Shown: piece by piece, positions 2,308-26,308 of the stretch
How the letters are laid out: each line of letters opens with the position of its first letter
Numbering within the stretch: the stretch's first letter is position 1
DNA from: a virus
Strand: one strand, 5' to 3'
DNA: 26,308 nt
IMG/VR virus record: IMGVR_UViG_3300025810_001189
Coordinates: 1-26,308 of that record
The notes under the pieces: generated by a model
The model's database searches: none
What the model was told of the DNA's origin: nothing
Seen by the model: only the letters and a program-made list of their open reading frames with translations
Translations under genes and position numbers: made by a program

Positions 2308-3183
2308 TTAACTCCTGTGTAAATCTAGTGTAGTGCAGTGGTGACCACCGCCTAGTGTTCTTGAATGTGCAAATGGTACAGTGTAACTTAATACCCCATT
2401 TGCTCGTAGTGCTTGTTCTAGTTTAGGACAGTCATCAATAACTGCCAAGTCCGGACGAATCATAAAGAAGTTTAATAGTATATAGTTACTTGCAAATGCT
2501 TCTCCAGAAAAATCTTTGCGTGTTAAATCTTCGTCACCTAGCCAAATAACTTCCCAGTCTTTAAAACATTTAGGTAGTGTTTTCTTTGTAACACGATCCT
2601 TGTTTACAACAACAAGTCCGTCTGCAACAGGACTAAATGTGCTGTCAATATGCACACCGCCATATGTCTTAGTAACTTCTACAGTGTAATCAGGAAACTG
2701 TTCTTGTAACCAAGTTGCACCTGCTCGTGTACCACTAACGCTTTGTAGATATAACAGCGTTTGGCCCAGCCTACAAACGTTAGCAGCATCGAACTTTACC
2801 CATCTATTGCGTGGGGCAGTGACTACACGCTTTGCACTTTTCAGCACAAAATCTATATAATGACTCTCTTGTAGTCTACACTCATACTGCATATTACAGT
2901 CGACAACAGTATTGCCAACAACTAGCAGTCTATCACGTGGGCAATAGTTGTACATGCCGCCTGAGATAGCAAAGTTGTTATACTTTGGTCTGTAAACTTT
3001 TACACCTTCTTGTTCGAGTGTGCGAGCAAAGCGATCCAAGTCCATATCTGCTTGTGCAGTAACATGTCCAAGGTATGCACCAGGCTGTGCAAAATGACAA
3101 CCATCAGGTTTGTTAGCACCTGCTGCCAGCCCTACTACCACACTACGAAGTGGTGACCATTCGTTGTGACTACTAATCTTCAT
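2308..3183 (-). CDS. Arginine:amine amidinotransferase (glycine/inosamine amidinotransferase family)
   Basis: 291 residues, shorter than the roughly 350-420 of cellular enzymes. The catalytic set of the family is present: D132 in FDAANVCRLG, H178 in GGVHIDSTF and the nucleophile C283 in LGGGHHCTTLD. These match the Asp-His-Cys triad of AGAT and StrB1, which move the amidino group of arginine to an amine through a Cys-amidino intermediate. The start ATG overlaps the folE stop (TAATG), so it is translated with folE. Possible acceptors are glycine (guanidinoacetate), an amino sugar, or an aminomethyl group on a modified base; the sequence does not decide. Dimethylarginine hydrolase or arginine deiminase are related folds, but the GGGHHC and HIDSTF context fits the amidinotransferase branch best. 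Confidence 0.85.
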   Translation of the reverse strand: MKISSHNEWSPLRSVVVGLAAGANKPDGCHFAQPGAYLGHVTAQADMDLDRFARTLEQEGVKVYRPKYNNFAISGGMYNYCPRDRLLVVGNTVVDCNMQYECRLQESHYIDFVLKSAKRVVTAPRNRWVKFDAANVCRLGQTLLYLQSVSGTRAGATWLQEQFPDYTVEVTKTYGGVHIDSTFSPVADGLVVVNKDRVTKKTLPKCFKDWEVIWLGDEDLTRKDFSGEAFASNYILLNFFMIRPDLAVIDDCPKLEQALRANGVLSYTVPFAHSRTLGGGHHCTTLDLHRS

Positions 3184-3869
3184 TAGCGTGGTGCAAACTC
3201 CTGTTGTAGTTTGATGTTGTCAAAGAACTCTTGCTTTGTGCCTGCATCACTGTTAAATGCACCTTCGAGTACAGTTGTTTGTGTCAGACTGCTATGTGCC
3301 ATAATGCCACGATTCTCACAACAGCCATGTGTTGCTTGAATGTAAACAGCAACATCTTTACTGCCAGTTGCACTCATAATCTCACGGGCAATGTCGTTGC
3401 AAAGTTCTTCTTGTAGCGTACCTCTTCTGGCACACCATTGTGCAATGCGTGTATACTTGCTAAGTCCAATAAGTTTCTCTGCAGCAATAATACCAATGTA
3501 TGCAACGCCTGTGACTGGCTGATGATGATGGCTACAAACACTTTTAAGTTCACTGCGTACAACCAACATACCTTTGTATCCTTCTTCAACATGATTAGGA
3601 AATGCAGTTGCATTAGGCATTGGATCATAGCGACCACTCATCAATTCGTTGATGTACATCTTTGCTAGTCTGCGACCAGTGTCATTGCTGTTAGGATCAT
3701 TTGCACGATCAATGATAAGACTGTCCAGTACATCTTCAAACTTAGTAGTAAGTTCTTCAATTAGTGACTGTTTGTCGCCTTCGTGTAGATAACTTGAGAT
3801 GTTATCGCCTGCCCAATAGCGTCCGCCAGCATTGCGGATTCTTGCTGTAATTTGTTGTGAAATTGTCAT
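3183..3869 (-). CDS. folE: GTP cyclohydrolase I
   Basis: 228 residues from the chosen start. The enzyme opens GTP to 7,8-dihydroneopterin triphosphate, the entry step of both folate and 7-deazaguanine (preQ0) synthesis. Family signatures are clear: SELKSVCSHHHQP with zinc ligands C112 and H115, GLSKYTRIAQWCARR, and the third ligand C183 in ATHGCCENRG. I choose the ATG at 3869, preceded by GGAG at 6 nt; an in-frame ATG at 3899 would lie at or before the expected transcription start of the promoter at 3908-3936. The gene leads an operon with the amidinotransferase, the small protein, the BMP-family protein and the oxygenase. A QueD-like gene and a DpdA-like gene elsewhere in the window suggest its product feeds deazaguanine synthesis. 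Confidence 0.93.
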   Translation of the reverse strand: MTISQQITARIRNAGGRYWAGDNISSYLHEGDKQSLIEELTTKFEDVLDSLIIDRANDPNSNDTGRRLAKMYINELMSGRYDPMPNATAFPNHVEEGYKGMLVVRSELKSVCSHHHQPVTGVAYIGIIAAEKLIGLSKYTRIAQWCARRGTLQEELCNDIAREIMSATGSKDVAVYIQATHGCCENRGIMAHSSLTQTTVLEGAFNSDAGTKQEFFDNIKLQQEFAPR

Positions 3870-10801: not shown

Positions 10802-11673
10802 TAGAACAACTCTAGTTGTTTATGAATCCAAACGTCACGAGCGAATTGTTCGCTCCAGTATCTATCATTATATAGATTATCTATGGCTGTGTCAACCATT
10901 TTCTCATATGCATCTTCTGGACATAGTCCAAGTGGCTCTGTGTGAATTAGGTCACCTTGTTTGAAAAACTCAATACTGATCTTATCACCTACAGGATTCT
11001 TCCAACTTGTAGTGCAGGTATACATATGCCATTCGTTGTTTAGCATTAGTTCTGCAGTGTCATCAACATCATATACACCACTTGGATCTACTACGCCATA
11101 GTCAGTTGATCCCACAGTATCCAATGTATAGTGCTGATGTTTATTAGCACTGTATAGTCCTAAACTAATCCATTCAGGATCAAATACCTGCACCCAACTT
11201 AGCAAGTGTGGCATCAAGTCTCTGCTTACACCACCCCATGCACGACTCTTATCAGTAAACCAACTACCTGGATTAGGCACTCGATTATAGTTGTGCCAGT
11301 TGAGAACAATCTCATCACTCTTGCGAGCAATCATGTACAGGTCTGCTACATTGTGTCTAAACTGATTGTTCTTGACCATTGCAAAGCGTGTGTTAGGAAA
11401 TGTATGCACAAGTGCTTCCCAATGTTCTGCTGTGCGTAATCCTGGCTTTTCTACAAACACAATCTTACAACGACTAGCAATGGTTCTTGCAATAGTGCCG
11501 TGTGTCCAATTAGGTGTGCAAATGTGTGCCGCATCAAATTCGCCTTCGACTTCTTCAATGTCCCAATAGTCAGCAGGCTTGTTTTGATCTACTGTTACTA
11601 CATCCCAGAGTTTGCTTTCGTAGATACTTTTGTAAAGTTCGCCTATACCCATACCTACTATAAGAGCTCGCAT
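10801..11673 (-). CDS. Gfo/Idh/MocA-family oxidoreductase
   Basis: 290 residues. The N-terminal Rossmann fold starts MRALIVGMGIGELYKSI. The family motif EKPG lies in IVFVEKPGLRTAEHW, and the catalytic-domain signature is WGGVSRDLMPHLLSW, equivalent to the usual GG-x3-D-x3-H. Members use NAD(P) to oxidise or reduce sugars and related compounds. The start is coupled to the transglycosylase-like gene (TAATG, with GAGGA as ribosome site inside that gene's last codons) and the end to the zinc dehydrogenase gene. A role in making an unusual sugar, or a base substituent, is possible; neither can be chosen from sequence. Confidence 0.8.
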   Translation of the reverse strand: MRALIVGMGIGELYKSIYESKLWDVVTVDQNKPADYWDIEEVEGEFDAAHICTPNWTHGTIARTIASRCKIVFVEKPGLRTAEHWEALVHTFPNTRFAMVKNNQFRHNVADLYMIARKSDEIVLNWHNYNRVPNPGSWFTDKSRAWGGVSRDLMPHLLSWVQVFDPEWISLGLYSANKHQHYTLDTVGSTDYGVVDPSGVYDVDDTAELMLNNEWHMYTCTTSWKNPVGDKISIEFFKQGDLIHTEPLGLCPEDAYEKMVDTAIDNLYNDRYWSEQFARDVWIHKQLELF

Positions 11674-13175
11674 TATACTTCCTCAAACAAACTAAAGTAC
11701 TGTGCGCTACTGTTGACTGTTTTCTTGCCAACATGACCGCGTGTGCCAACAACCTTCATCCACAGTCGTGTATGGTCATCGATCATTTTCATTTGTGCAT
11801 CATAACTGTCTAGTTCAAATATTCTGGCAATAACATCTTTAACTTCTGTTTTGTCAAATGTATCCTCTACTAGCATATAAGGATATCTACCTTCGTCAAA
11901 CACACGATTTGCTTCCTGCACACTGCGCAAGTGTGTATACACATTATGATTCATAAGCAGTGCATAGGTAAAACTATCCCAACTTGTAGCATTGCTTTGT
12001 CCCATGCGATTTACATCGTTAGGACCATATACTGTGATGTCATTTAGTTTTAGTCCTTGACTCATTGGACTTGACATCCAGTTGTCATACAGTGGATCAC
12101 AATACTGATCGTAAGGAGTAGTGTCCATGTGCAGTGCTTTGTCATCTGGCGCACTTTCCATCATGTAACTCCACTTGCCTTCATGTTCTAGTCTATACCC
12201 TGTGTACTGTGTTCCGTTGCTTGTAGCAAGGAAAGGACTAGCACAGTCAAATGTAATAGTGAAGTTTTCGTTGTGTGCTTTGCGTACACCACGCTGAATA
12301 GCAGTCAGCACCATTGCCCATTCTAGTTTGCTTGTGCCCAAGAAGTGCATAACATCGTGCTTGCCCTTTTCAAGTAAGCCGTCACGCATCAGTGTAACCA
12401 CACGCTTGAGTGCAAGGTGAATATCACACATGTTCTGACCACCCATTGCCCAGCCATTAAAGTGTGTTTCCGGATACTTTACTGGATCACAAAAGTCTTT
12501 CATTTGCTCATACCAGTCATCTGCTTGTGCAAAGTTTTCACCTTGTAGCACATTCAAGAACTTGCAACTACCATCTCTGTGTTTCATAAAGTATTCGTTA
12601 TTGTATCTTGTACCATCAACTGCTTCTTGATATGAACTGATCTTACTTGCCGCACTGCCTTCCGGACTACGATCTACCCATGCTGGAATATCCAAAATCA
12701 TTCCATAGTCCATAAACTTGTCCATCCAGCGTAGTACGCCGTCACGTTTCTTTTGCGCCTTTTCGCAACCACTGCCTGCACGCCAGTCGCCTTCCCATTT
12801 ACCTTTACCAATCTGAAAGCCTCCACTATCGCCTAGTAGCCAACTTGACTCTCTGTTGCGATCACGGAACATATCTTCTCTGTAAAGGTCTTTGGTAAGA
12901 TCCAAACTAGCGTGACCAGCACTGTGCAAACTCCACTTGTACTGCCACAATCCTTTAGGATCAAGCCAGTTCATGCTCTCAACACCATGAGGTAAATGTG
13001 TTGGGATTCTATCGTGTGGGATATATGGAACACCACTGCCCTTGATGTTTTCATCATAAGGCTGTAATCCTCTGCGCTGTCTGCCTACAAACAGTGCATA
13101 GAATGTACTAAGTGCTGGCAGGAATACTGCATAGTCCTTTTGTTCAGCGGTTAAGTTTAACTTTAGTTCCGACAT
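11673..13175 (-). CDS. dpdA: tRNA-guanine transglycosylase-superfamily protein, DpdA-type (7-deazaguanine insertion into DNA)
   Basis: 500 residues. The TIM-barrel signatures of the TGT superfamily run in order: D116-SGGFQ (residues 116-121), NVLQGEN (208-214), GWAMGG (241-246), HFLGT (277-281) and the probable nucleophile D310 in ITFDCASPFLATSNG, equivalent to the FDCVxPTR loop. The CxCxxC zinc site of tRNA-acting TGT is not visible, which favours the phage DpdA branch that exchanges guanine in DNA for a 7-deazaguanine. FolE and a QueD-like protein in the window could supply the precursor; QueC is not here. The gene overlaps the radical SAM gene by 32 bp and is coupled to the oxidoreductase gene. 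A tRNA or other nucleic-acid target remains possible. Confidence 0.8.
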   Translation of the reverse strand: MSELKLNLTAEQKDYAVFLPALSTFYALFVGRQRRGLQPYDENIKGSGVPYIPHDRIPTHLPHGVESMNWLDPKGLWQYKWSLHSAGHASLDLTKDLYREDMFRDRNRESSWLLGDSGGFQIGKGKWEGDWRAGSGCEKAQKKRDGVLRWMDKFMDYGMILDIPAWVDRSPEGSAASKISSYQEAVDGTRYNNEYFMKHRDGSCKFLNVLQGENFAQADDWYEQMKDFCDPVKYPETHFNGWAMGGQNMCDIHLALKRVVTLMRDGLLEKGKHDVMHFLGTSKLEWAMVLTAIQRGVRKAHNENFTITFDCASPFLATSNGTQYTGYRLEHEGKWSYMMESAPDDKALHMDTTPYDQYCDPLYDNWMSSPMSQGLKLNDITVYGPNDVNRMGQSNATSWDSFTYALLMNHNVYTHLRSVQEANRVFDEGRYPYMLVEDTFDKTEVKDVIARIFELDSYDAQMKMIDDHTRLWMKVVGTRGHVGKKTVNSSAQYFSLFEEV

Positions 13176-16947: not shown

Positions 16948-17874
16948 CTAGGAACATTCATCAGTTATAATTTCAACTAGTGGAGCACTTAGTTTTTGTG
17001 TAGTTAGACCACCAGGTTTTCTGACTATCATCCAACTATTTGCTTCTCGGAAACACTGTTCCTTTACAATGTCGAATCCAAGCATTTCTACCATACTCGC
17101 CATAAGTGTTCTAGTATTATATGCGCGATAGCTGGCGTTGCCTGCGCATAACTTCAGACTAGCTATGTTTTCACAATCATTATAGGTAAAAATAAAATAG
17201 CCGCCTGGTTGTAGTATGTTATAAACTTTACGCATCTCATCTTTAATAGGATCAATGGGCCAAAATTCGTAGCAGTTAATACTTGTTGCTAACCCTAACT
17301 GACCTTGCGGCAAATTGTCTAGATCATTGTAGATCATTAAACGCTTTTCTGCAAAAAAACTGTTAAACTTGCTACGAATGCTATCTATATCTGCAATGTT
17401 TCCTGTATACACATAAAGAGGATCACAAGCAAGCATGCTTTCTGTAAGTACACCTGTGCTAGGATTAAGTTCAACTCCAGCGAACCGCCAACTGCTATAG
17501 TAACCTACGTCAGATGAAATTTCTTTAATAATTTCTTTGTCACGGATAGCTCTTTCTTGTGTTAATTCTAAGTTTCTATTTTCAGTTGCAAACGTGTCGT
17601 AGTTTTTACGAAGTAACACTAGTTCTTCTTTTCTGAGTAATTCACTAGTTTTTTTATTAATACTATGCAATACATTGTTGTAACGGAAACTAAGTTTCCT
17701 TAGCTGAGTACAAATATCGTCTAATTCATCATATAATGATTGATCTTGCCAGTACTTTGATTGTTCTCGGAAGAATGTTTTTTTTGTGTCTATTGTTGCA
17801 TCAAGATCAAACTCGTGGTCTTTGTTATCTCGCAAAAAGCGACTAAACAAAATCATTTTATCTACAAGTCTCAT
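16948..17874 (-). CDS. SAM-dependent methyltransferase-like protein with N-terminal coiled region
   Basis: 308 residues. The first 120 or so are charged and helical (DELDDICTQLRKLSFRYNN, then LLRKNYDTFATENRNLELTQ), likely a coiled coil. The C-terminal part looks like a class I methyltransferase: YYSSWRFAGVELNPST, ACDPLYVYTG, an acidic strand, then the family strand YNILQPGGYFIFTYND and a final ANSWMIVRKP. The glycine-rich SAM motif I is weak, so activity is uncertain. A good ribosome site (AGGAG, 6 nt) and a T4-type late promoter lie upstream. AT-rich relative to the polymerase gene. The substrate is unknown; sugar methylation is one option. Confidence 0.65.
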   Translation of the reverse strand: MRLVDKMILFSRFLRDNKDHEFDLDATIDTKKTFFREQSKYWQDQSLYDELDDICTQLRKLSFRYNNVLHSINKKTSELLRKEELVLLRKNYDTFATENRNLELTQERAIRDKEIIKEISSDVGYYSSWRFAGVELNPSTGVLTESMLACDPLYVYTGNIADIDSIRSKFNSFFAEKRLMIYNDLDNLPQGQLGLATSINCYEFWPIDPIKDEMRKVYNILQPGGYFIFTYNDCENIASLKLCAGNASYRAYNTRTLMASMVEMLGFDIVKEQCFREANSWMIVRKPGGLTTQKLSAPLVEIITDECS

Positions 17875-17889
17875 TGAACTCTCCTAGTG

Positions 17890-17897
17890 TATTTATA
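17890..17897 (-). promoter_or_regulatory. T4-type late promoter (TATAAATA)
   Basis: The minus strand reads TATAAATA at 17890-17897, an exact match to the gp55-dependent late promoter of T4-like phages. It lies between the polymerase stop (17906) and the methyltransferase-like ATG (17874). A start about 5-6 nt downstream would place the leader just ahead of its AGGAG site. This is the only exact copy I noticed in an intergenic position. Confidence 0.6.
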
Positions 17898-17905
17898 TGC
17901 GTACA

Positions 17906-20566
17906 TTACTCAAAGGAGAATAAATCATCAAATGTGTTTGCAGTTTGCGTTGCACCTTTAAGATCCCATTTGAGAACACTGAGCAAGTTATCAATCTTTT
18001 GATCTACGATAGTTGCTTCCATCAGTCCATTATCAAAAGGCATGTCTTTAAACCACTGTGGCAAATGTGTTTCGTCTGTGGGATAGCCAATGCTAGTCCA
18101 GCCCAGAGGATTGCTTTTTAGTTTACACACAATAGTTTTAGCACCATCCATAATCTCTTGGCTATACTTGTCGCCATTCATCTTACGCATGTTGTTCCAG
18201 TTCATTGCTGCTCTCACATGTCCGGGCATGTTTGCTTTACCAAGTCGCTTTTCTTCTGCTGCATACTTGGTCAAGTTGTTAACACGCTTGGGTGTGCCTT
18301 TTTCCCAACCTGGACGCTCGTGGAAGTTGTTTTTGAATTCTTTGATCTTTTCAATAATTTCTTCACGTTGGCTACCAGTCAGTACATCCAATAGTAGTTC
18401 ACTCATAAAGTCCTGCATAACCTTAGGTGTGTCACTGCGCTTTAGATCTAATCCCATTGCTTTTACTTTGCCGGGCTTGCCATCTGTGTCCAAACGGAAA
18501 CCTTCTAAATCATAGATTAGTGCTGCATAACGCTTCTTGGTAATGTATAGACCTTTGGTTGCAACAATCTCTCTGCCGCCTTTAATGATCTCACCATTTG
18601 CTCTTGGACAATGAAAAGCACGTTCCATGAACACTGGAAACTCTAAGTTAACTTGATCTGCAATACCATCATAGAGTTGTGCAACAATCTCTTTGGTCCA
18701 TTCTTGTCGCCCTGCCTCAACATCCTCTTGCATCATGGGCCATGCACTAAAGTATACCGAATCGGTATCGCCATATACAATAGCATCGCCTACATGGTCT
18801 TCTTTTCCTGTAAGTAGTGCGTTAACAGTTTCAGCCATTCGCTTGCTGATGCACCGTCCAGTAAGAGTTGTTGATTGCCCGATGCGATGGTCAAAGAAAC
18901 GGCAACCTGGATTAAGAATAGCACCATATAAACTATTAAGATTAATCTTCTTAACTAATTGTCGCTTGTCCCAATACTCAACATCACCTTGTTCATCCTT
19001 TGCACGTTTCAGTTCCTTCTGCATATCTTTACGCTCTGCATACCAGCGTTCAAGCAGTGCAGGGATAATGCCCTTGCGTTCATATGTAAAGATAGTACCG
19101 TTAGCACTAAGCGTCCAAGGCTGATTGCTGTCAAATATAAGACACCAAACATCATACGCACTGAGTGTATCCTCGTCACCGTTCTCCCAGTCAATGGTAA
19201 TCTCAGTGCCACGTTCCATGTTCATAACTGCTTGATACTCTTTACTACCAAACTCGCCTTCCCATGCATCAGCAAAACTTTTTTTGTCTGCCATCTTTGT
19301 GCGCACTGCATGTTCGGTCATTGTTTGACGCAGTTGTCCTACCACAGTTTCTGGACCCATGTTAAGCGCACGAATTACACTAGGATACAAACTGTTGATG
19401 TCGATAGCACCAATCCAGTCATGCAATCCTTTTTTAGGATATGCAACATATGCACCTGCAGCAGTAGTATGTTCGCCATCTCTGTTTTTACGATTGGGAA
19501 CAACCATACCACGAGCATGTGCGTCATTGATAATTGCTTGTTCTGTCACAGCAACAGCACCCATAGTAGTCATCAGCAGCACAGTGTTCTCATGTGCCAG
19601 CACATTACTTAGGTCAATAAAGCGTAGTTTTTTGTCCAGTTTGTTTAGCAGCGCAGTATCTTGTCTGTTATAATCGATAAACTTTTCAAAGTCTTGATTG
19701 TATAACTGATCCAGTGTGCCTTCATATGCAACCTTGCGTTCATCTAGTTCATGTTCGCCAATACTATCGAGAGTATAACTGTGTCGTTCTTCATATGTAT
19801 ACTTGCGATACAGTTGCATGTAATCCAAGTGTACACGCCCTACTAGATCAAATGTTTGACTTTCTTTACCAAAGCGTTCAAATGTACGCTTACGAGGTTG
19901 TTGACCGAACAAACACCATTTGCGGTTATCATCTTTACTAAGCACACGAGTAATACGATTAATTGTATAGGGTATATCATATCCTTCACTGTTCCAACCA
20001 CTTATAATATCTGCATCATCTAACAAGTCTAAAAACACTTGTAGCATCTCTGCTTCACTGGTAAACAGATATGTGTTATCAAAACGTTTTGTTAGATCCT
20101 TAGCAGTTTCCATTGTCATACTACCAGGTGGGATAGCCAATGTAACAAGTGTGTCTGTCCAGTCTAAGTATATACTAATTGCCGTAATAGGATTAAAAGG
20201 ATCCTCAGGACTACTATAGCCTTTTTCTTTGTGGAAGTCTACCTCAATATCGAAAAAAGCAGTTTGTAGTTTAGGAGCATCAGCGTTTAGATAGTTGTCT
20301 GCCAAACAACGGAACACAGGATTGATGTCACTTTCCCATACGCCTTTGCTACCTTGGATTTTAAGTTCACGTTGGAACTCTTTGCGATTGCGTGTAGCAA
20401 ATCTACTCACAGGTTTGTCATATATAGTTTTGTATTTGCCACGTGGATCATCATAGTAAAACACATAGTTGGCAGGATACTCCTGGTATGTTCTCTTTCC
20501 ATTCACACGTTCGACTACATGTATCCTGTCACGTTCTCTGTCAAAATATGCGTCTACATAACTCAT
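17906..20566 (-). CDS. 43: DNA polymerase, family B, T4 gp43-like
   Basis: 886 residues from the ATG at 20566, close to T4 gp43 (898). This start overlaps the previous stop (TGATG) and has GGAG 7 nt before; an in-frame ATG at 20626 would add 20 residues inside the upstream gene. The 3'-5' exonuclease motifs are AFFDIEVDF (D106, E108), SGWNSEGYD (N192, D197) and YNRQD (Y299, D303). Polymerase motif A is DINSLYPS (from D389), motif B is KKINLNSLYG (539-548), motif C is YGDTDS (598-603), and KKRY follows. The last residues DDLFSFE resemble the clamp-binding tail of gp43. It replicates the phage genome together with the clamp encoded downstream. Confidence 0.97.
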   Translation of the reverse strand: MSYVDAYFDRERDRIHVVERVNGKRTYQEYPANYVFYYDDPRGKYKTIYDKPVSRFATRNRKEFQRELKIQGSKGVWESDINPVFRCLADNYLNADAPKLQTAFFDIEVDFHKEKGYSSPEDPFNPITAISIYLDWTDTLVTLAIPPGSMTMETAKDLTKRFDNTYLFTSEAEMLQVFLDLLDDADIISGWNSEGYDIPYTINRITRVLSKDDNRKWCLFGQQPRKRTFERFGKESQTFDLVGRVHLDYMQLYRKYTYEERHSYTLDSIGEHELDERKVAYEGTLDQLYNQDFEKFIDYNRQDTALLNKLDKKLRFIDLSNVLAHENTVLLMTTMGAVAVTEQAIINDAHARGMVVPNRKNRDGEHTTAAGAYVAYPKKGLHDWIGAIDINSLYPSVIRALNMGPETVVGQLRQTMTEHAVRTKMADKKSFADAWEGEFGSKEYQAVMNMERGTEITIDWENGDEDTLSAYDVWCLIFDSNQPWTLSANGTIFTYERKGIIPALLERWYAERKDMQKELKRAKDEQGDVEYWDKRQLVKKINLNSLYGAILNPGCRFFDHRIGQSTTLTGRCISKRMAETVNALLTGKEDHVGDAIVYGDTDSVYFSAWPMMQEDVEAGRQEWTKEIVAQLYDGIADQVNLEFPVFMERAFHCPRANGEIIKGGREIVATKGLYITKKRYAALIYDLEGFRLDTDGKPGKVKAMGLDLKRSDTPKVMQDFMSELLLDVLTGSQREEIIEKIKEFKNNFHERPGWEKGTPKRVNNLTKYAAEEKRLGKANMPGHVRAAMNWNNMRKMNGDKYSQEIMDGAKTIVCKLKSNPLGWTSIGYPTDETHLPQWFKDMPFDNGLMEATIVDQKIDNLLSVLKWDLKGATQTANTFDDLFSFE

Positions 20567-20874
20567 CAAAGAGCTCCAATTAGTTGTACTAATGCGTAAA
20601 TGTTCATTATTGTGAACCAACTGCACAACACAAAGGCAAATGCTGCTTTTCTTATTATAGTACTAACTGCACCCAAAATGCTACCTATAAGATACAGTGG
20701 TACAAATTGCCAGCCATTGGGATCGAGGATAGTAAAACTCAATATTGCACTGGCACTGATAAGCATCACTGCTTCAATTAGTTCGCAGTAAAATGCCAAT
20801 GGACTCAGTTTATAACTGTTCTCAAAGAACTCGTATATTGCTTTTGTGTAAGCAAATTTTCTAATACGATGCAT
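20566..20874 (-). CDS. Small membrane protein, 102 residues
   Basis: After a basic N-terminus (MHRIRKFAYTKAIYEFF) the protein has about three hydrophobic segments: LIEAVMLISASAILSFTI, VPLYLIGSILGAVSTII and FAFVLCSWFTIMNIYALV. It should sit in the host inner membrane. No family is recognised. It starts right after the DsbA-like gene (TAAATG) and ends on the polymerase start codon (TGATG), an unexpected place for a membrane protein. A role in superinfection exclusion or in anchoring replication to the membrane are guesses only. Confidence 0.7.
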   Translation of the reverse strand: MHRIRKFAYTKAIYEFFENSYKLSPLAFYCELIEAVMLISASAILSFTILDPNGWQFVPLYLIGSILGAVSTIIRKAAFAFVLCSWFTIMNIYALVQLIGAL

Positions 20875-21132
20875 TTAGATTTTGCCTACAGTAGCAAGAA
20901 TATTCTCTAGCTCACTGTATTCATCACTGTGCTTTTCAAAATCTGCTTTGTATGCTGTGCGCAATGCCTTTTTAAGCACTGTTGGCTTGATCTGCATTTC
21001 TTCTGCAATGGCTTTAATAGTATCATTGAGACCATCATTGAGATCGTCAACTTCCTGCATTACAGTAATGCCTTCATTTACTAGTTGTGTTAGTTTTGCC
21101 TTTTCTTCAGGCCCGAAAACTCTGTCACTCAT
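20875..21132 (-). CDS. dsbA: DsbA-like small double-stranded-DNA-binding protein
   Basis: 85 residues, compared with 89 for T4 DsbA. The pattern DDLNDGLNDTIKAIAEEM, PTVLKKALRTAYKADFEKH, SDEYSELENILATVGKI fits the T4 protein's helical layout (NELIKDIRIRAKDELG, FNRLLALYHKDNRD, VVELYDTVF). In T4, DsbA binds duplex DNA and favours late-promoter complexes. The gene has a perfect sigma70-type promoter of its own and a strong ribosome site (AAGGAG). It would be the first gene of a unit carrying the membrane protein and DNA polymerase. Recognition is by pattern, so moderate confidence. Confidence 0.65.
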   Translation of the reverse strand: MSDRVFGPEEKAKLTQLVNEGITVMQEVDDLNDGLNDTIKAIAEEMQIKPTVLKKALRTAYKADFEKHSDEYSELENILATVGKI

Positions 21133-21160
21133 GTGAGTACTCCTTGTTGATTATTGCTTT

Positions 21161-21189
21161 ATTATATATGTATATGGGAGAAGTGTCAA
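21161..21189 (-). promoter_or_regulatory. Perfect sigma70-type promoter for dsbA-like/polymerase unit (TTGACA-17-TATAAT)
   Basis: TTGACA (21184-21189) and TATAAT (21161-21166) on the minus strand are separated by exactly 17 bases. The -35 box contains the TGA stop codon of the preceding cupin-like gene (21186-21188). The start of RNA should be near 21154, with a leader of about 22 nt and AAGGAG before the ATG at 21132. Confidence 0.88.
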
Positions 21190-21464
21190 CTAATATGTTG
21201 AGTTATTTCAACTGTAAGGTCTGACTTGCCTTTGATAAGTCTGTGATATACTCGTTCAGGAATAAAGTAATCTCTGCCAGGAACTAGTACCACAGGTAAA
21301 CTGTTGTCTAACTGTAGACACCATCCTGCACCTTCTAACACACGAACTGTACGATCCTCAGCATCACGGTGCCAGCAAAGGTCACTGTTATCTGCGTGTT
21401 CTCGAAATGTTCTTTGTTTAATGTTAGGTGCGACTTGGGTTTCCTCGTAAGGTTTTACCACCAT
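21186..21464 (-). CDS. Small cupin-like protein, 92 residues
   Basis: A single small beta-barrel is suggested: LCWHRDAEDRTVRVLEGAGW (with a possible metal-ligand His), LQLDNSLPVVLVPGRDYFIP, and VYHRLIKGKSDLTVEI with a second His. This order (H…E…G, then PG…IP…H) is that of cupin domains. Small cupin-like proteins occur in marine T4-like phages, with no known role to my knowledge. The ATG overlaps the end of the upstream head-type gene by 10 bp (ATGGTGGTAA). Confidence 0.65.
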   Translation of the reverse strand: MVVKPYEETQVAPNIKQRTFREHADNSDLCWHRDAEDRTVRVLEGAGWCLQLDNSLPVVLVPGRDYFIPERVYHRLIKGKSDLTVEITQHIS

Positions 21465-22651
21465 TGTCCGCCTTTAACTCCTAAAGCCTTGTAACGTGGA
21501 GTTCTGCAACTCCAATAACGAGCAGTAGTTTTATCATTTGCTGTTTTGCACTTGTGTCGTGCTACAAAACTTTTAACTGCACCTCTGTCTTTTGCTTTTA
21601 CGCTAAGTCCAGTTGTGTCGCCCCATGATACTTTGATCACATTGCCTTTTTTATTCTTTGTGTATACATAAAACTTCTTACTACCGCCACGCTTTGGGCT
21701 GTTAAGTTTTACTTTGCGTCCTTGATACTCTGCTTCTGAAATGTCATTTTTAGCAAAGTTCATTAAATTTTCATATGACTGGCTAATATATTTTATAATT
21801 TTAAATTTGTTTTGTGTCGTGCCTGCTCGGTTAATTTTCGATAGTACAATCTCTGCTATGTTACTAGGTACTTTTACAGTTTTGCTATTGTCAAAAATAA
21901 CATCTTTTTGTCCGTTCATCGAAATAGATTTAAGTAATTGAGCCTGCACGCCTTCTCCGTCATATTTTGTTTCATCAGACACAGGAAAGTCATATGCAGT
22001 CAAATCCATTTGAAAAGGGTTTTGTTTGCGCTCATCAAGTTCTTCTTCAATAACTTCCATTGGAACATCTAGTGGTACTAGTTCGCCTTCTACCATAATA
22101 CATTCACCAATATCTGTGTCTAGCAGTTCTTCGTCTTGCCAATCTAAATTTAAGTGTTCACGAACTACACGAACTTGGCGATAAAATTCTGTAAACGCTG
22201 GCGAACCTGCACGGAACATACACTCTGTAAATGGGATACCTTGTTTAACATGTTCGCGAATAGCATTTTGAATGTCATCCATTGCAATCTTTACATTACT
22301 TGCACTATTTTTTGGATCAAATGTTACAGGTTTTACACGTTGAATAGTACTTTGACCGGCACCCTGCCTCTGATCTACTTTGGCTTGCTTCTGCATTGCT
22401 GTTCTTTCTTGATTATCTGCTTGTTTTAAAGCACTATTTAGATCATCTCTTGTTTGTTTTGTTATATGAGCATAGTCATTGTATCTTTGGTTATCTGTAC
22501 TAATTCGATTAGCAAAATCTCTAACTCTATGATTCCTAACTTTATCTTGCATTGAGATACTTTTGTCAGCAACAGGTGTATTAACAACTGCAATAGTTCC
22601 CGGCTTTTTAGGAGGCACTGGCTGCTCTGTAATAAATTCACTTGCTCTCAT
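21455..22651 (-). CDS. Probable head-associated/internal protein with capsid-targeting-like N-terminus, 398 residues
   Basis: The N-terminus MRASEFITEQP resembles the T4 capsid-targeting sequence (MKTYQEFIAEA) and has I-T-E, a prohead-protease-like (I/L)-x-E site, at residues 7-9. The middle is polar and charged (DKVRNHRVRDFANRI, NSALKQADNQERTAM). The C-terminal 90 residues are basic: EYQGRKVKLNSPKRGG, FYVYTKNKKGNVIKVSWGD, then a His/Cys module SFVARHKCKTAND…ARYWSC. I believe that last module recurs in marine phage proteins of unknown function. The start is coupled to the upstream stop (TAATG). I infer packaging inside the head; a non-virion role is not excluded. Confidence 0.7.
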   Translation of the reverse strand: MRASEFITEQPVPPKKPGTIAVVNTPVADKSISMQDKVRNHRVRDFANRISTDNQRYNDYAHITKQTRDDLNSALKQADNQERTAMQKQAKVDQRQGAGQSTIQRVKPVTFDPKNSASNVKIAMDDIQNAIREHVKQGIPFTECMFRAGSPAFTEFYRQVRVVREHLNLDWQDEELLDTDIGECIMVEGELVPLDVPMEVIEEELDERKQNPFQMDLTAYDFPVSDETKYDGEGVQAQLLKSISMNGQKDVIFDNSKTVKVPSNIAEIVLSKINRAGTTQNKFKIIKYISQSYENLMNFAKNDISEAEYQGRKVKLNSPKRGGSKKFYVYTKNKKGNVIKVSWGDTTGLSVKAKDRGAVKSFVARHKCKTANDKTTARYWSCRTPRYKALGVKGGQWW

Positions 22652-22959
22652 TAGTTACTCACATTCTTTGCTTTGCCTTTGCGGCTCTTATTTGGATCTT
22701 CTCTACGCTTGCGTTTTACTGCTCTTGCAATACCCGCCTTGCCATCTTTTTTACCATCGCCATCTTTGTCTGCGTTGCGCAATTTTGCTGCAGCACTCTT
22801 ACTCAAACACTTGGGCTTTGACTTTCCTTTAGTATCGCCACACTTGCCAATGCGATTACCTGATCCATCATAAGCATCCCAGCCACCGCCTCCAGCGCCG
22901 CCCTTTTTGCCTTTGCCGAACCACGCTCTCAAATCTTCATGTAGTTCGTAAGCTCGCAT
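22651..22959 (-). CDS. Small basic Gly/Lys/Cys-rich protein with capsid-targeting-like N-terminus
   Basis: 102 residues from the ATG at 22959, which overlaps the previous stop (TAATG); the longer frame to 23007 is inside the upstream gene. It starts MRAYELHEDLRAWFGKG, with L-H-E at residues 6-8 as a possible prohead-protease site. A glycine-rich linker leads to GGWDAYDGSGNRIGKCGD, KPKCLSKSAAAKLRNADKDG and a very basic tail (RAVKRKRREDPNKSRKGK). The composition suits nucleic-acid binding inside a capsid. The WDAYD…GKCGD…KPKC module looks like a domain of unknown function seen in other phages. Confidence 0.68.
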   Translation of the reverse strand: MRAYELHEDLRAWFGKGKKGGAGGGGWDAYDGSGNRIGKCGDTKGKSKPKCLSKSAAAKLRNADKDGDGKKDGKAGIARAVKRKRREDPNKSRKGKAKNVSN

Positions 22960-23588
22960 TATTTCTTCTTGCTGTTGCCCCAGTTGGCTGCACCAACCTT
23001 GCGACATTTAACTAGTGCACCACTGGCATATGCACTGGGCCAAACTTTGTAGCGTGATTTTACTTTGCGATAACAAGCATCTTTTTCGCCTGCTGCTTCA
23101 TCAAACTGTTCTTCTGTAAGTGCTTCTTCAATGTCTTCACTGGCTTTTTTAAACAAATCTAATTGTGTGCCCTTTGGAATTTCAATAACTTTAGGTTCTT
23201 TTGGCTTATTTTTATCCTGCAATCTAGCCATTGCATCAAAATTTGACCTGTTGCGCAGACTTGATAAACTCTTGTATTCTTCAAGTTCTTCTTCAGTAAT
23301 GCCTTCGCTCATGCCAGTTACTGCCTTCATTGCACGATCCAGCATGCCCATGTTTTGATCTACACTAATTTTAAGATCTGGATCCATGCGCTTTGCTTCT
23401 AGTTCACTTTTGGCAAGTGCAGTAATTTTCATAGCAAGTTCCATCTTATCGCCCTTGCCCATTTGCACAGCACGAACAAGTTCAAGCACTTCTGCTTGCA
23501 CTGCTTTACGCTCGGGACTGAAAGATTTTTTCATAATCTCTACTGTGTCATCCATTGCAGAGTTTTCTGAGAACTGACGGAAACGCAT
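22959..23588 (-). CDS. Probable head-associated protein with C-terminal Cys/Trp basic module, 209 residues
   Basis: It begins MRFRQFSENSAMDD, similar in length and pattern to the other MR..EF..E starts but with F-S-E instead of (I/L)-x-E. A helical middle follows (AVQAEVLELVRAVQMGKGD, MKITALAKSELEAKRM, GMLDRAMKAVTG). After an acidic stretch the C-terminus has DACYRKVKSRYKVWPSAYAS and ALVKCRKVGAANWG, a compact Cys/Trp/basic motif that I recall from several marine phage proteins, without known function. Both ends are TAATG-coupled to neighbours. Confidence 0.68.
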   Translation of the reverse strand: MRFRQFSENSAMDDTVEIMKKSFSPERKAVQAEVLELVRAVQMGKGDKMELAMKITALAKSELEAKRMDPDLKISVDQNMGMLDRAMKAVTGMSEGITEEELEEYKSLSSLRNRSNFDAMARLQDKNKPKEPKVIEIPKGTQLDLFKKASEDIEEALTEEQFDEAAGEKDACYRKVKSRYKVWPSAYASGALVKCRKVGAANWGNSKKK

Positions 23589-24103
23589 TAGTCTTCCTCA
23601 GTCTGCTTTACTGCATACATATGTGCATCTTTTAGTGCTTGAAATGCTTCTGCAATCTTTTCATGTGCTACATTCAAATAACTTTCATCACCGCCCTCGG
23701 CAATTACTCCACCGCTAAGTTGTCCACCTTCTGCAGTAATAGCAACAAGTTGTTCCATTACTTTGTATGTGCTGTTAAACATGCGATCAAGTTTTGCTGC
23801 ACCGATGTTTGTTTCTGCAACTGTTGTAGCAACTGTGCTAAGATCATTGCCTGCCTCAACTTCACTCTTCATAAAGTTGCGATAGCGTGTTGCCATATCA
23901 TCAGTTTCTTCAACTTCCTCTGCTTCAACAACTACTGGCTGATAAGGATTCTCTGCACTGATAGCATTGAACTTACTTAGTAGATTTGCTGTTTCAGCAA
24001 TCTCCGCTGGCTTTGTGCTTGGAGCACTTTCAACAACAACTGAAGTTTCTTTGTTCTCTTCGATGTCGTTAAGTTTCTGTACTAGTTTAAAAAAGTCAGA
24101 CAT
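23588..24103 (-). CDS. Unrecognised acidic, helical protein in the head-type cluster, 171 residues
   Basis: The ATG at 24103 overlaps the previous stop (TAATG) and has GGAG 9 nt before, so I prefer it to the in-frame ATG at 24118. The start MSDFFKLVQKLNDIEENKE contains I-E-E, a possible prohead-protease site near residue 14. The rest is acidic and Ala/Thr-rich (PVVVEAEEVEETDD, LSTVATTVAETNIGAAKL), ending in helices HEKIAEAFQALKDAHMY. Low-complexity acidic composition resembles scaffold or core proteins. No domain is recognised. Confidence 0.65.
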   Translation of the reverse strand: MSDFFKLVQKLNDIEENKETSVVVESAPSTKPAEIAETANLLSKFNAISAENPYQPVVVEAEEVEETDDMATRYRNFMKSEVEAGNDLSTVATTVAETNIGAAKLDRMFNSTYKVMEQLVAITAEGGQLSGGVIAEGGDESYLNVAHEKIAEAFQALKDAHMYAVKQTEED

Positions 24104-25431
24104 TATTTTTTGCTCCATTCACTGAATTTACTTTGGGTTAGTGGTCTTGTTGTATCCTGTGCCATACTGCGTGGTTCCATACTGCGAGGACTGCGAGGTG
24201 CTCCTCGTTGTATAGGCTTTGTTTTTGGCATTGCCATACTATTTGCTTGTTTTTGCTGTTGTTGCATGCTTACTCTTGGTCCTTGTTTTACTGGGTTTTT
24301 GTCATCTTTTGGAAGTTTAGCAATGATATCACCAATAACATCTCTACCGCTTTTAGCACCTGCTTTAACTCCTTTACCTAGTTTACCAATGATGTCGCCA
24401 ATAATATCTTCATCTTCTTCAACAGCATCTTGCTCCATCATTGCCATATCAAAGCCACTTACTTTAACACCGTAACGATCTTCTAGTTCATCAGCAACCA
24501 TATCAAAAATTTCATCTTCGCTGTCACCAGGATTAACCATAACTTTAACATTTACGTCTGTTGGAAGTTTATCAAGTGCTGGACCATCATAATCAATGTT
24601 TGTTGCTCTGACCATTACTTCACGATCTTCATTAACTGCTTCTTCACTAACTAAGCCCATTTCTTTAGCAATCTCGTAGCGTAGTTCATCAGCATCGCCT
24701 GGCTCCATGTCAGCACTGCCTCTGCGTCTTGCTTCCATGTCAATCCAACTTGCCCATTCACTGCCAAACTCTTCAAGGTCGCTAAAGCCTAAACGACCTT
24801 CTGCGATACTTTCTGTAGCAGTTTTTTTCTCGTCTGCTAGATGTGCATCAATGCCTGCTGTGCTCTTTAGTCCCCAATGCTCTGCAGCCTTTTTTGCTGC
24901 GGCATATGAACTAGTGCCACTGCACTCGTACTTGCCTTTCTTAGCATGTACACAAATGTAATCACGCTCTTCTGCTTCGATAACTTCAACACTTTCCGCA
25001 TAAAGTCCATCAATGTCGCCCAAGTAACCATCACAAGCATTGTCCTCATCATTGGGACAATCACCGCCGCAATATCTGCACTCTTCTTTTTCTTCCATTG
25101 TCATAGCGTCTGTCATATCACCAGCAACAGGAACAACTGCTAGTTCTACATCAGACATTGCTTGACCTTCCATGTAGTGTTTTACGCTACCCAAGTAGTC
25201 AGCAGCCTTGGTAATCTTTGCTGCAACCCAACCATCAATGCCTTCCATCTCTGAGACATCTTTGAGCATTTTATGAATTGCTACTGCATATTTTGCACTC
25301 TTGTAGCAATCGCTTCGTGCCATTTGCACTTCATGATCTTTTTCAGCCTCATGAGCCATGTCAGCTAAACCTTCATTTAACTGTGGTTTCTCAACATTGA
25401 GTTCTTCAAGTTTTGTAATAATATCACGCAT
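24103..25431 (-). CDS. Large acidic protein with Cys cluster and internal IGDII repeat, 442 residues
   Basis: It starts MRDIITKLEELNVEKPQLNEG; L-E-E and L-N-E are possible prohead-protease sites within the first 20 residues. A cysteine cluster C118-x2-C121-x3-C125-x7-C133 (ECRYCGGDCPNDED) could bind zinc. Next comes a module YICVHAKKGKYECSGTSSYA, then AAEHWGLKSTAGIDAHLAD, which I recall from marine phage proteins. An acidic region is followed by two copies of an amphipathic repeat (342-351 and 364-373) and a Gln/Pro/Arg-rich tail (PRSPRSMEPRSMAQ). AGGA lies 8 nt before the ATG. Likely a head-associated protein, possibly cut into pieces during assembly. Function unknown. Confidence 0.68.
   Translation of the reverse strand: MRDIITKLEELNVEKPQLNEGLADMAHEAEKDHEVQMARSDCYKSAKYAVAIHKMLKDVSEMEGIDGWVAAKITKAADYLGSVKHYMEGQAMSDVELAVVPVAGDMTDAMTMEEKEECRYCGGDCPNDEDNACDGYLGDIDGLYAESVEVIEAEERDYICVHAKKGKYECSGTSSYAAAKKAAEHWGLKSTAGIDAHLADEKKTATESIAEGRLGFSDLEEFGSEWASWIDMEARRRGSADMEPGDADELRYEIAKEMGLVSEEAVNEDREVMVRATNIDYDGPALDKLPTDVNVKVMVNPGDSEDEIFDMVADELEDRYGVKVSGFDMAMMEQDAVEEDEDIIGDIIGKLGKGVKAGAKSGRDVIGDIIAKLPKDDKNPVKQGPRVSMQQQQKQANSMAMPKTKPIQRGAPRSPRSMEPRSMAQDTTRPLTQSKFSEWSKK
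24313..24408 (-). repeat. Two-copy in-frame amphipathic repeat, D(I/V)IGDII(G/A)KL
   Basis: Within the 442-residue protein, DIIGDIIGKL (342-351) recurs as DVIGDIIAKL (364-373) after a 12-residue basic linker rich in Gly, Lys and Ala. The DNA repeat is not exact, so it is an old duplication or selected similarity. Such amphipathic helices could bind membrane or other head proteins. Confidence 0.6.
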
Positions 25432-25465
25432 GGTTTTGTTCCTGTTTTATTAGTGTGTTTTATAT

Positions 25466-25678
25466 TTATCGTTTAACAATGCTACCCATAACATTGTCTT
25501 TAACATCAAGTGCATTGACTGCAGTACCATCTGGCTTTTTCTTTTGCGGTGCAACTGGAATACCGTTTTTATCTCGTTTAAGTTTAGCATGTGCTTGTAC
25601 TGGATTTGCAACTGCAGCAATATTACCACTTGCTGTTGCTGTTGCACTTGCTGTTTCCATTATCTCTTTAATTTTCAT
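25466..25678 (-). CDS. Small low-complexity protein with capsid-targeting-like N-terminus, 70 residues
   Basis: The product starts MKIKEIMETASATATASGN. I-M-E at residues 6-8 fits the (I/L)-x-E prohead-protease rule, and MKIKEIME is close in layout to the T4 capsid-targeting peptide. An Ala/Thr/Val stretch (NIAAVANPVQAHA) and a basic part (KLKRDKNGIPVAPQKKK) follow. The start lies inside the end of the upstream gene (11-bp overlap). The family is unnamed. It looks like the smallest member of the head-type group. Confidence 0.62.
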   Translation of the reverse strand: MKIKEIMETASATATASGNIAAVANPVQAHAKLKRDKNGIPVAPQKKKPDGTAVNALDVKDNVMGSIVKR

Positions 25679-25902: not shown

Positions 25903-26199
25903 TCAATCTCGCATATTAAATGCAAAACTTACTTGTCTTGCTAGTTGTATGCCTCTTTCCCGTTCTGCTTTCTTGGTACTCTTTTTCATTTTGTTAGCCT
26001 TAGCACGAAGTCTTTTCAAGTCTGTCTTGCTAAGTTTTTCGCCGGCGCCCTTGCCCAAATACTGTGCTGCCTTTCTTTTTAAACTGCCTGGGCGGCTGCC
26101 TGGTTTTTCTGGTTGTGTAAAGTCCTCAGTTAGTTGTTCCAACTCCTCCATCAGAGTCAGTATTGTTTGTTGTTGTTCGTTCAGATCGTTGTGTTGCAT
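25903..26199 (-). CDS. Small basic helical protein, 98 residues
   Basis: An acidic, Gln-rich N-terminal helix (NEQQQTILTLMEELEQLTEDF) is followed by a Pro/Gly turn and a strongly basic region SLKRKAAQYLGKGAGEKLSK, TDLKRLRAKANKMKKS, then RERGIQLARQVSFAFN. It could bind DNA or act as a core protein. The start at 26199 (AAGG 9 nt upstream) gives a 74-bp overlap with the end of the upstream gene; a start at 26151 would reduce this but lacks a ribosome site. No recognised family. Confidence 0.62.
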   Translation of the reverse strand: MQHNDLNEQQQTILTLMEELEQLTEDFTQPEKPGSRPGSLKRKAAQYLGKGAGEKLSKTDLKRLRAKANKMKKSTKKAERERGIQLARQVSFAFNMRD

Positions 26200-26308
26200 C
26201 GTTCTGTGCCTTTTGGTTCTGGATCCACTTCTTCGCCGCTGGCTTGCTAGGTGGAGTGTTTAAGAATCTTTGTGTCTCATTGTATACTTTATCAAAGTTT
26301 TTCTGTCT
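26126..26308 (-). CDS. C-terminal 60 residues of a gene entering from the right edge
   Basis: The frame is open from the right edge to a TGA at 26126-26128. The visible tail reads RQKNFDKVYNETQRFLNTPP, then SKPAAKKWIQNQKAQNDATQ, and ends in a polar Ser/Thr/Asn/Gly-rich stretch (DSDGGVGTTN). It is plausible as coding because of its protein-like composition and because the next gene begins within it. The family cannot be judged from this fragment. A structural (head or portal-region) gene would fit the neighbours. Confidence 0.6.
   Translation of the reverse strand, partial: RQKNFDKVYNETQRFLNTPPSKPAAKKWIQNQKAQNDATQRSERTTTNNTDSDGGVGTTN

Follow-up and report, generated by a model that had tools for sequence, protein, structure and literature searches.

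A block of probable capsid-targeted, prohead-protease-processed internal head proteins in a fragment of a large marine T4-like phage

The window, meaning the whole stretch of DNA that was analysed, is a 26,308-base linear virus fragment from IMG/VR (IMGVR_UViG_3300025810_001189). Its B-family DNA polymerase has as nearest isolates Sinorhizobium phage Phosso (51%) and Agrobacterium phage Atu_ph07 (43%), both large phages, and has many 76-100% matches among uncultured viral contigs. By eye, the product of the gene at 1032-2105 looks like a periplasmic solute-binding protein of the BMP/PnrA type, signal peptide included, which would be unusual for a phage. A GTP cyclohydrolase is encoded at 3183-3869 (phrog_2197, 2e-44), and the product of 11673-13175 resembles tRNA-guanine transglycosylases by eye. 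These two genes make 7-deazaguanine DNA modification possible in this phage.

The block described here consists of six consecutive head-to-tail genes, labeled a to f, on the minus strand between positions 21455 and 25678. The features are as follows, with an arrow marking a predicted cut.

26126..26308, minus strand: C-terminal part of a large multidomain protein, truncated where the contig stops; its C-terminal FDKVY..TQRFLNTPP is common to protein G006_25 of the related contig G006
25466..25678, minus strand: gene a, 70 aa, pI 10, tag MKIKEIME↓T, predicted cut after E8 (codon 25657-25655)
25463..25469, minus strand: ATAAATA late-type promoter element, starting 38 nt upstream of gene b
24103..25431, minus strand: gene b, 442 aa, acidic, N-terminus MRDIITKLEE
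23588..24103, minus strand: gene c, 171 aa, acidic (pI 4.4), N-terminus MSDFFKLVQKLNDIEE
22959..23588, minus strand: gene d, 209 aa, tag MRFRQFSE↓N (E8, codon 23567-23565), phrog_727 match (1.4e-24)
22651..22959, minus strand: gene e, 102 aa, pI 10.2, net charge +17, tag MRAYELHE↓D (E8, codon 22938-22936)
21455..22651, minus strand: gene f, 398 aa, pI 9.3, tag MRASEFITE↓Q (E9, codon 22627-22625), phrog_7595 match (3.6e-10)

All six N-termini reported in an initial annotation of this DNA are present at the positions given there. The block reaches beyond the coordinates of that annotation, to the end of gene f at 21455 on one side and to the end of the large neighboring protein (26126-26308) on the other. 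In c, d, e, and f, the start ATG shares bases with the stop of the gene before it (TAATG), which makes these starts firm and excludes start-codon artefacts.

A targeting peptide ending in (I/L)-x-E is present in a, e, and f. The tag of d ends in F-x-E, b has such sites at residues 10 and 20, and c has none. Of the six proteins, a, d, e, and f are basic (pI 8.4-10.4), and the other two are acidic, with a pI of 4.6 for b and 4.4 for c. The block is therefore not uniformly basic.

Gene b has a predicted 20-aa propeptide ending LNE↓G (codon 25374-25372), followed by the module GLADMAHEAEKDHEVQMAR..WVxxKITKAADY, which is preceded by E in 20/20 nonredundant cases. LEE at residue 10 was rejected as the cut site since it is LEQ in G006, whereas LNE↓G at residue 20 is conserved. 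Homologs of c begin with MSDFxxLVxKLNxI and have no conserved hydrophobic-x-E (phi-x-E) site; c is possibly a core or scaffold-type protein. Gene d has a second site, FDE↓AAGEKDACY (E164, codon 23099-23097), which precedes the KVWPSAYASGALVKC module, found in 365 phage records, mainly of cyanophages. In e, the tag immediately precedes the module DLRAWFGKGKKGGAGGGGWD..KCGD..KPKC, and homologs of this module follow phi-x-E in both N-terminal and internal contexts. Gene f has a second site, ISE↓A (E306, codon 21736-21734), preceding the C-terminal EYQG..RHKC..YWSC module.

None of the block proteins matches a characterised Pfam family, and its PHROG matches are either weak or to families of unknown function. 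No significant match to the T4 IPI/IPII/IPIII/Alt families was found in Pfam or PHROG, nor any significant match in a PDB sequence search. No isolated phage matched a, c, or the b module. The AlphaFold model of the f module (pLDDT 74) had no match among PDB structures at E<=0.001; its matches among viral structures are unnamed relatives and proteins annotated as XkdF and ChaB (BFVD A0A6J5T6Y7 and A0A6J5M6S8), which carry an f-type module. The model of the e module is poor (pLDDT 66).

The presence of (I/L)-x-E within the first 16 residues, as claimed earlier for most of these genes, holds for five of the six, the exception being d (FSE). It is also found in 7 of the 29 other window genes (Fisher p=0.012), in 20% of 2,687 other genes in related contigs, and in 52/231 T4 genes. 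At 13-24% of genes this motif is too common and was rejected as sole evidence for a tag. Along entire block proteins, (I/L)-x-E enrichment is significant for a and f only.

A fuller pattern, M[KR]-x(2-6)-hydrophobic-x-E, was chosen once the block, T4, and S-CREM2 sequences were known. It occurs in 5/6 block genes and 0/29 other window genes (p=1.8e-5). The related contigs, with 2,889 genes, were tested after the pattern was fixed. The tag is present on 85 of 202 module-bearing proteins (42%) and on 170 of 2,687 others (6%), with an odds ratio of 10.8 and p=2e-41, a value that overstates independence because these genes come from kindred lineages. Many of the 170 are likely members themselves, including homologs of a and a cytidylyltransferase-like protein starting MRSKEFTE. 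Small phage genes with an MR or MK start and an early acidic residue could produce similar N-termini by chance or composition, as the frequency of (I/L)-x-E alone would suggest. The distribution of the fuller pattern, together with its conservation in homologs, makes this explanation highly improbable.

The tags vary in spacing and recur on different modules. Homologs of a start with MKIKEIME, MRIREITE, MKINELLNE, or MKMYEILDE, retaining M[KR]xxE(I/L)..E with different spacing. The e module is preceded by MRAYELHE, MKITEIINE, MRASEFISE, or MLIEEILDE, and internally also by DFLNE. The tag of f, MRASEF(I/L)(T/S)E, recurs on unrelated modules, and similar tags are seen in MRASEFITE↓Q, MRASEFISE↓DLRAWF, and, before the CWKGY module, MRASEIITE↓KCWKGY. 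Near-identical tags thus front unrelated modules, and the spacing varies while hydrophobic-x-E is constant. Some f homologs have no Glu in the tag (MRFTEFDLTP, MRFSEIIHKP).

In nonredundant contexts, phi-x-E is found immediately before the module in 16/18 cases for e, 17/20 for b, 18/20 for d, and 28/32 for f, where its position is one residue back. These are four unrelated modules with phi-x-E directly upstream in 85-90% of cases. For the CWKGY module the count is 24/49. The clearest case is G002_240 (L254:10926-11984), which has four modules with one phi-x-E site each: MRADEFITE↓NLKQWF.., DELDE↓ACWKGY.., QIAE↓KQDACYHKV..WPSAYASG.., and VME↓DWQKAN..RRRWNC. The last of these is DUF6321 (7e-9). 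The sites at module borders suggest cleavable multi-module proteins. A conserved Glu inside one module family could be inherited, so the argument for cut sites rests on several unrelated families and on changed contexts.

The window contains neither a capsid gene nor a protease gene, the gp21 type included. An S77 (gp21-type) protease was found in G001 (4e-29) and also in G002, G003, G004, and G013. G001 is a close relative of 133,896 bases with a polymerase 90% identical to that of the window; the block is absent from the G001 sequence examined. Its head genes are in T4 order (portal, core-type protein, protease, scaffold, and capsid protein). An alignment of its protease with T4 gp21 and two cyanophage relatives showed that the HP and GVSSRG motifs are kept, and with them the catalytic His and Ser of family S77. 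In G002 (288,815 bp), the S77 protease is on one contig with both the capsid protein bearing LAE↓N and a multi-module protein that has a tag. G002 also encodes a 952-aa protein (L251:6569-9427) that starts with MRYKELLSE and matches Amidoligase_2 (1.5e-7), making it a tagged enzyme candidate on the same contig as the protease.

The capsid proteins of six relatives have LKE↓A, LAE↓N, LSE↓T, or IAE↓S aligned with LTE↓A (E65) of T4 gp23. The T4 protease gp21 cleaves after (L/I)-x-E, and gp23 loses a propeptide of 65 residues (PMC9026906). Because the junctions in the relatives match the T4 gp23 cut, the predicted cleavage rule of this lineage fits the phi-x-E sites of the block.

Published virion proteomes of related phages were compared. 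In S-CREM2 virions, 52 phage proteins were detected by mass spectrometry (PMC10665884), and their sequences were taken from the deposited genome. Virion protein gp160 contains both d-type and e-type modules, and gp137 contains a C-terminal RRRWNC module. Tagged virion proteins include gp6 (L280:3837-5081; MKDFDSFLEE; S-AdoMet lyase, 2e-19), gp13 (MKDLHSFLTE; an unknown protein), gp14 (L280:10579-12846; MKRFDAFLTE; kinase-like), and gp154 (MKNFSSFLTE; cytidylyltransferase). The pattern is present in 6/43 virion proteins and 1/156 other proteins (p=4.5e-4), a modest enrichment in a count that omits nine virion proteins encoded past 150 kb and in which gp17 and gp156 may be incidental. As gp160 is in the virion with no obvious tag, other packaging routes exist.

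The cytidylyltransferase was also detected in the virions of two further phages, with the N-terminus MKKFSAFLNEA in S-SM1 (PMC3037559) and MRFRQFIIEA in S-SZBM1 (PMC9146016). Tagged proteins 191 and 192 of S-SZBM1 were not detected in its virions. The accessible text of the S-CREM2 paper does not mention the capsid-targeting-like N-termini of gp6 and gp14, and the portions of the literature on the virion cytidylyltransferase that were consulted tie its packaging neither to a targeting peptide nor to prohead cleavage. Since relatives of block proteins are found inside purified particles, the block probably encodes cargo that is packaged and delivered with the DNA.

These observations also bear on whether the N-termini could be an uncleaved interaction motif for a non-head target, such as a host complex or membrane, with the Glu forming part of the module fold. 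The Glu is almost invariant beside modules b and f and could be a domain residue. Hydrophobic-x-E is nevertheless found before several unrelated modules, at both N-terminal and internal positions, and it coincides with the capsid maturation junction. Tagged proteins also occur in the virions of related phages. An interaction motif of this kind is quite improbable.

The stretch after the tag of a resembles the junction and N-arm of the capsid protein of this lineage. The alignment of a homologs (IKE↓TASAGATSAGNIATV, for example) to the capsid sequence IAE↓SATAGATQAGNIATL is in register. Against shuffled sequences, p is 0.004-0.017 for the window copy and <=0.001 for four homologs, down to 3e-4. 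Common descent of a and the capsid junction is likely, but the stretch is Ala/Thr/Ser-rich and the resemblance is no proof.

The T4 late promoter is TATAAATA, to which the ATAAATA element is close. In G001 and G006, ATAAATA lies 22-47 nt upstream of gene starts in 16/34 cases, with 0.48 expected (p=4e-21). In G001 it is chiefly ahead of apparent structural genes, and it is found upstream of b homologs at 55/80 loci.

The late-type element common to the block and structural genes, the capsid cleavage junction in a, and the strongly positive e and C-terminal part of f, with their Cys pairs, are consistent with a morphogenetic function. The modules would then be chiefly head-assembly or DNA-condensing core proteins that are packaged and are not effectors, and a would compete with or mimic the capsid N-arm. 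A set made up of DNA-binding proteins only would not be expected to include the acidic b and c. As a narrower form of the internal-head-protein reading, in which the function is specified, this is a real possibility to which we give somewhat under an even chance.

The block in G006 (61,875 bases) is syntenic with that of the window. Upstream of it (17578-23639, L270-L272) are genes for cytidylyltransferase-like, transglycosylase-domain (MRLSEL), and zeta-toxin-like kinase proteins. The last, G006_25, is 1096 aa long and has an AAA/zeta-toxin-like kinase domain (Pfam AAA_33 5e-13, Zeta_toxin 1e-11); window positions 26126-26308 are the retained end of a G006_25-like protein. It is possible that these three are further delivered proteins. 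The G006 neighborhood resembles the cytidylyltransferase neighborhood in marine T4-like phages. In the 40 kb of phage Phosso that were examined, one tagged gene and no modules were found near polB.

The initial annotation had raised the prospect of new counter-defence functions, by which these proteins would be tagged, packaged, and injected to act against host restriction or other defences in the manner of T4 IPI. IPI is itself a tagged internal protein and blocks a restriction enzyme of type IV (PMC9026906). The tagged virion proteins of S-CREM2 include a SAM lyase and a kinase-like protein, and the zeta-toxin-like multidomain protein lies upstream of the block in G006. Against this, no anti-defence or other characterised Pfam match was found in the block, and the PDB gave no confident fold for the f module. 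The modules are widespread and well conserved, which is atypical of fast-changing anti-defence genes, and b and c are acidic. The proposal is thus left as an analogy with IPI, and we consider it unlikely.

The block most probably encodes capsid-targeted, prohead-protease-processed internal head proteins of a large marine T4-like phage, with modules unrelated to those of T4. The earlier description of the block as an arsenal of internal head proteins can be kept for a, d, e, f, and probably b, and not for c, which has no conserved tag. The assignment of the former is well supported by the tag statistics, the S77 protease and capsid junction of relatives, the phi-x-E before modules, and the virion proteomes of relatives. 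The short N-terminal peptide (M[KR]xx..[FIL]xE) would direct the precursor into the prohead core, and the phage S77 (gp21-type) protease would take off the tag by cleaving after hydrophobic-x-E. In multi-module precursors, the same cleavage would free small modules, often with Cys pairs. The mature pieces would remain with the packaged DNA and would probably be delivered with it. That these very proteins are packaged, cut, and ejected is an inference, and for the mature modules DNA binding, head assembly, and host take-over are possible functions.

A broader reading is that the block represents a widespread prohead-protease polyprotein system, in which phi-x-E-preceded and often Cys-paired modules with exchangeable tags are released by the gp21-type protease, and in which a copies the capsid junction and N-arm. 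We hold this tentatively, at close to an even chance. With the tag as a sequence rule, head-packaged proteins can be looked for in uncultured marine phages, whose virion cargo is mostly unannotated. DUF6321, phrog_727, and phrog_7595 become testable virion cargo. The tagged virion enzymes of cyanophages (SAM lyase, kinase, and nucleotidyltransferase) suggest undiscovered delivered effectors.

Among known families, DUF6321 (PF19846), phrog_727, and phrog_7595 cover modules of the set and are annotated with no function; no literature on DUF6321 was found. Polyvalent proteins (PMC5512222) are multidomain proteins for which packaging and delivery alongside DNA are predicted. G006_25 looks similar to them, whereas the block consists of small modules with no known enzymatic domains. 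The cyanophage virion cytidylyltransferase and its neighbors (T4-GC190; S-CREM2 gp154-156 and gp160; S-SZBM1_139-140) have tagged N-termini and d and e modules, as the block does, and are detected in virions; the cytidylyltransferase-like neighbor in G006 is a likeness to the T4-GC190 group. The T4 core proteins gp22, gp67, and gp68, which gp21 cuts into several pieces, resemble the block in having multiple phi-x-E sites and, for the acidic b and c, in composition. The pieces of the block differ in being conserved modules and not scaffold fragments, and its genes lie near polB and not between gp20 and gp23.

T4 gene 61.1 (L278, record 18966-19130) encodes a protein starting MKTFKEFIKED, which closely resembles the internal-protein tag, and by this N-terminus gp61.1 may be an unrecognised internal protein. 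The block shares with T4 IPI, IPII, IPIII, and Alt an N-terminal tag of about 10 residues ending in (I/L)-x-E (MKTYQEFIAE), a T4-like head for which relatives encode an S77 protease, and small proteins of which several are basic. It differs in that its tag is mostly 8-9 residues long, with MR more often than MK, and in that it includes acidic members and, in several proteins, extra phi-x-E sites between modules. The block would work like the T4 internal proteins but is not recognisable as their homologs, and the repetition of phi-x-E before modules is new relative to them.
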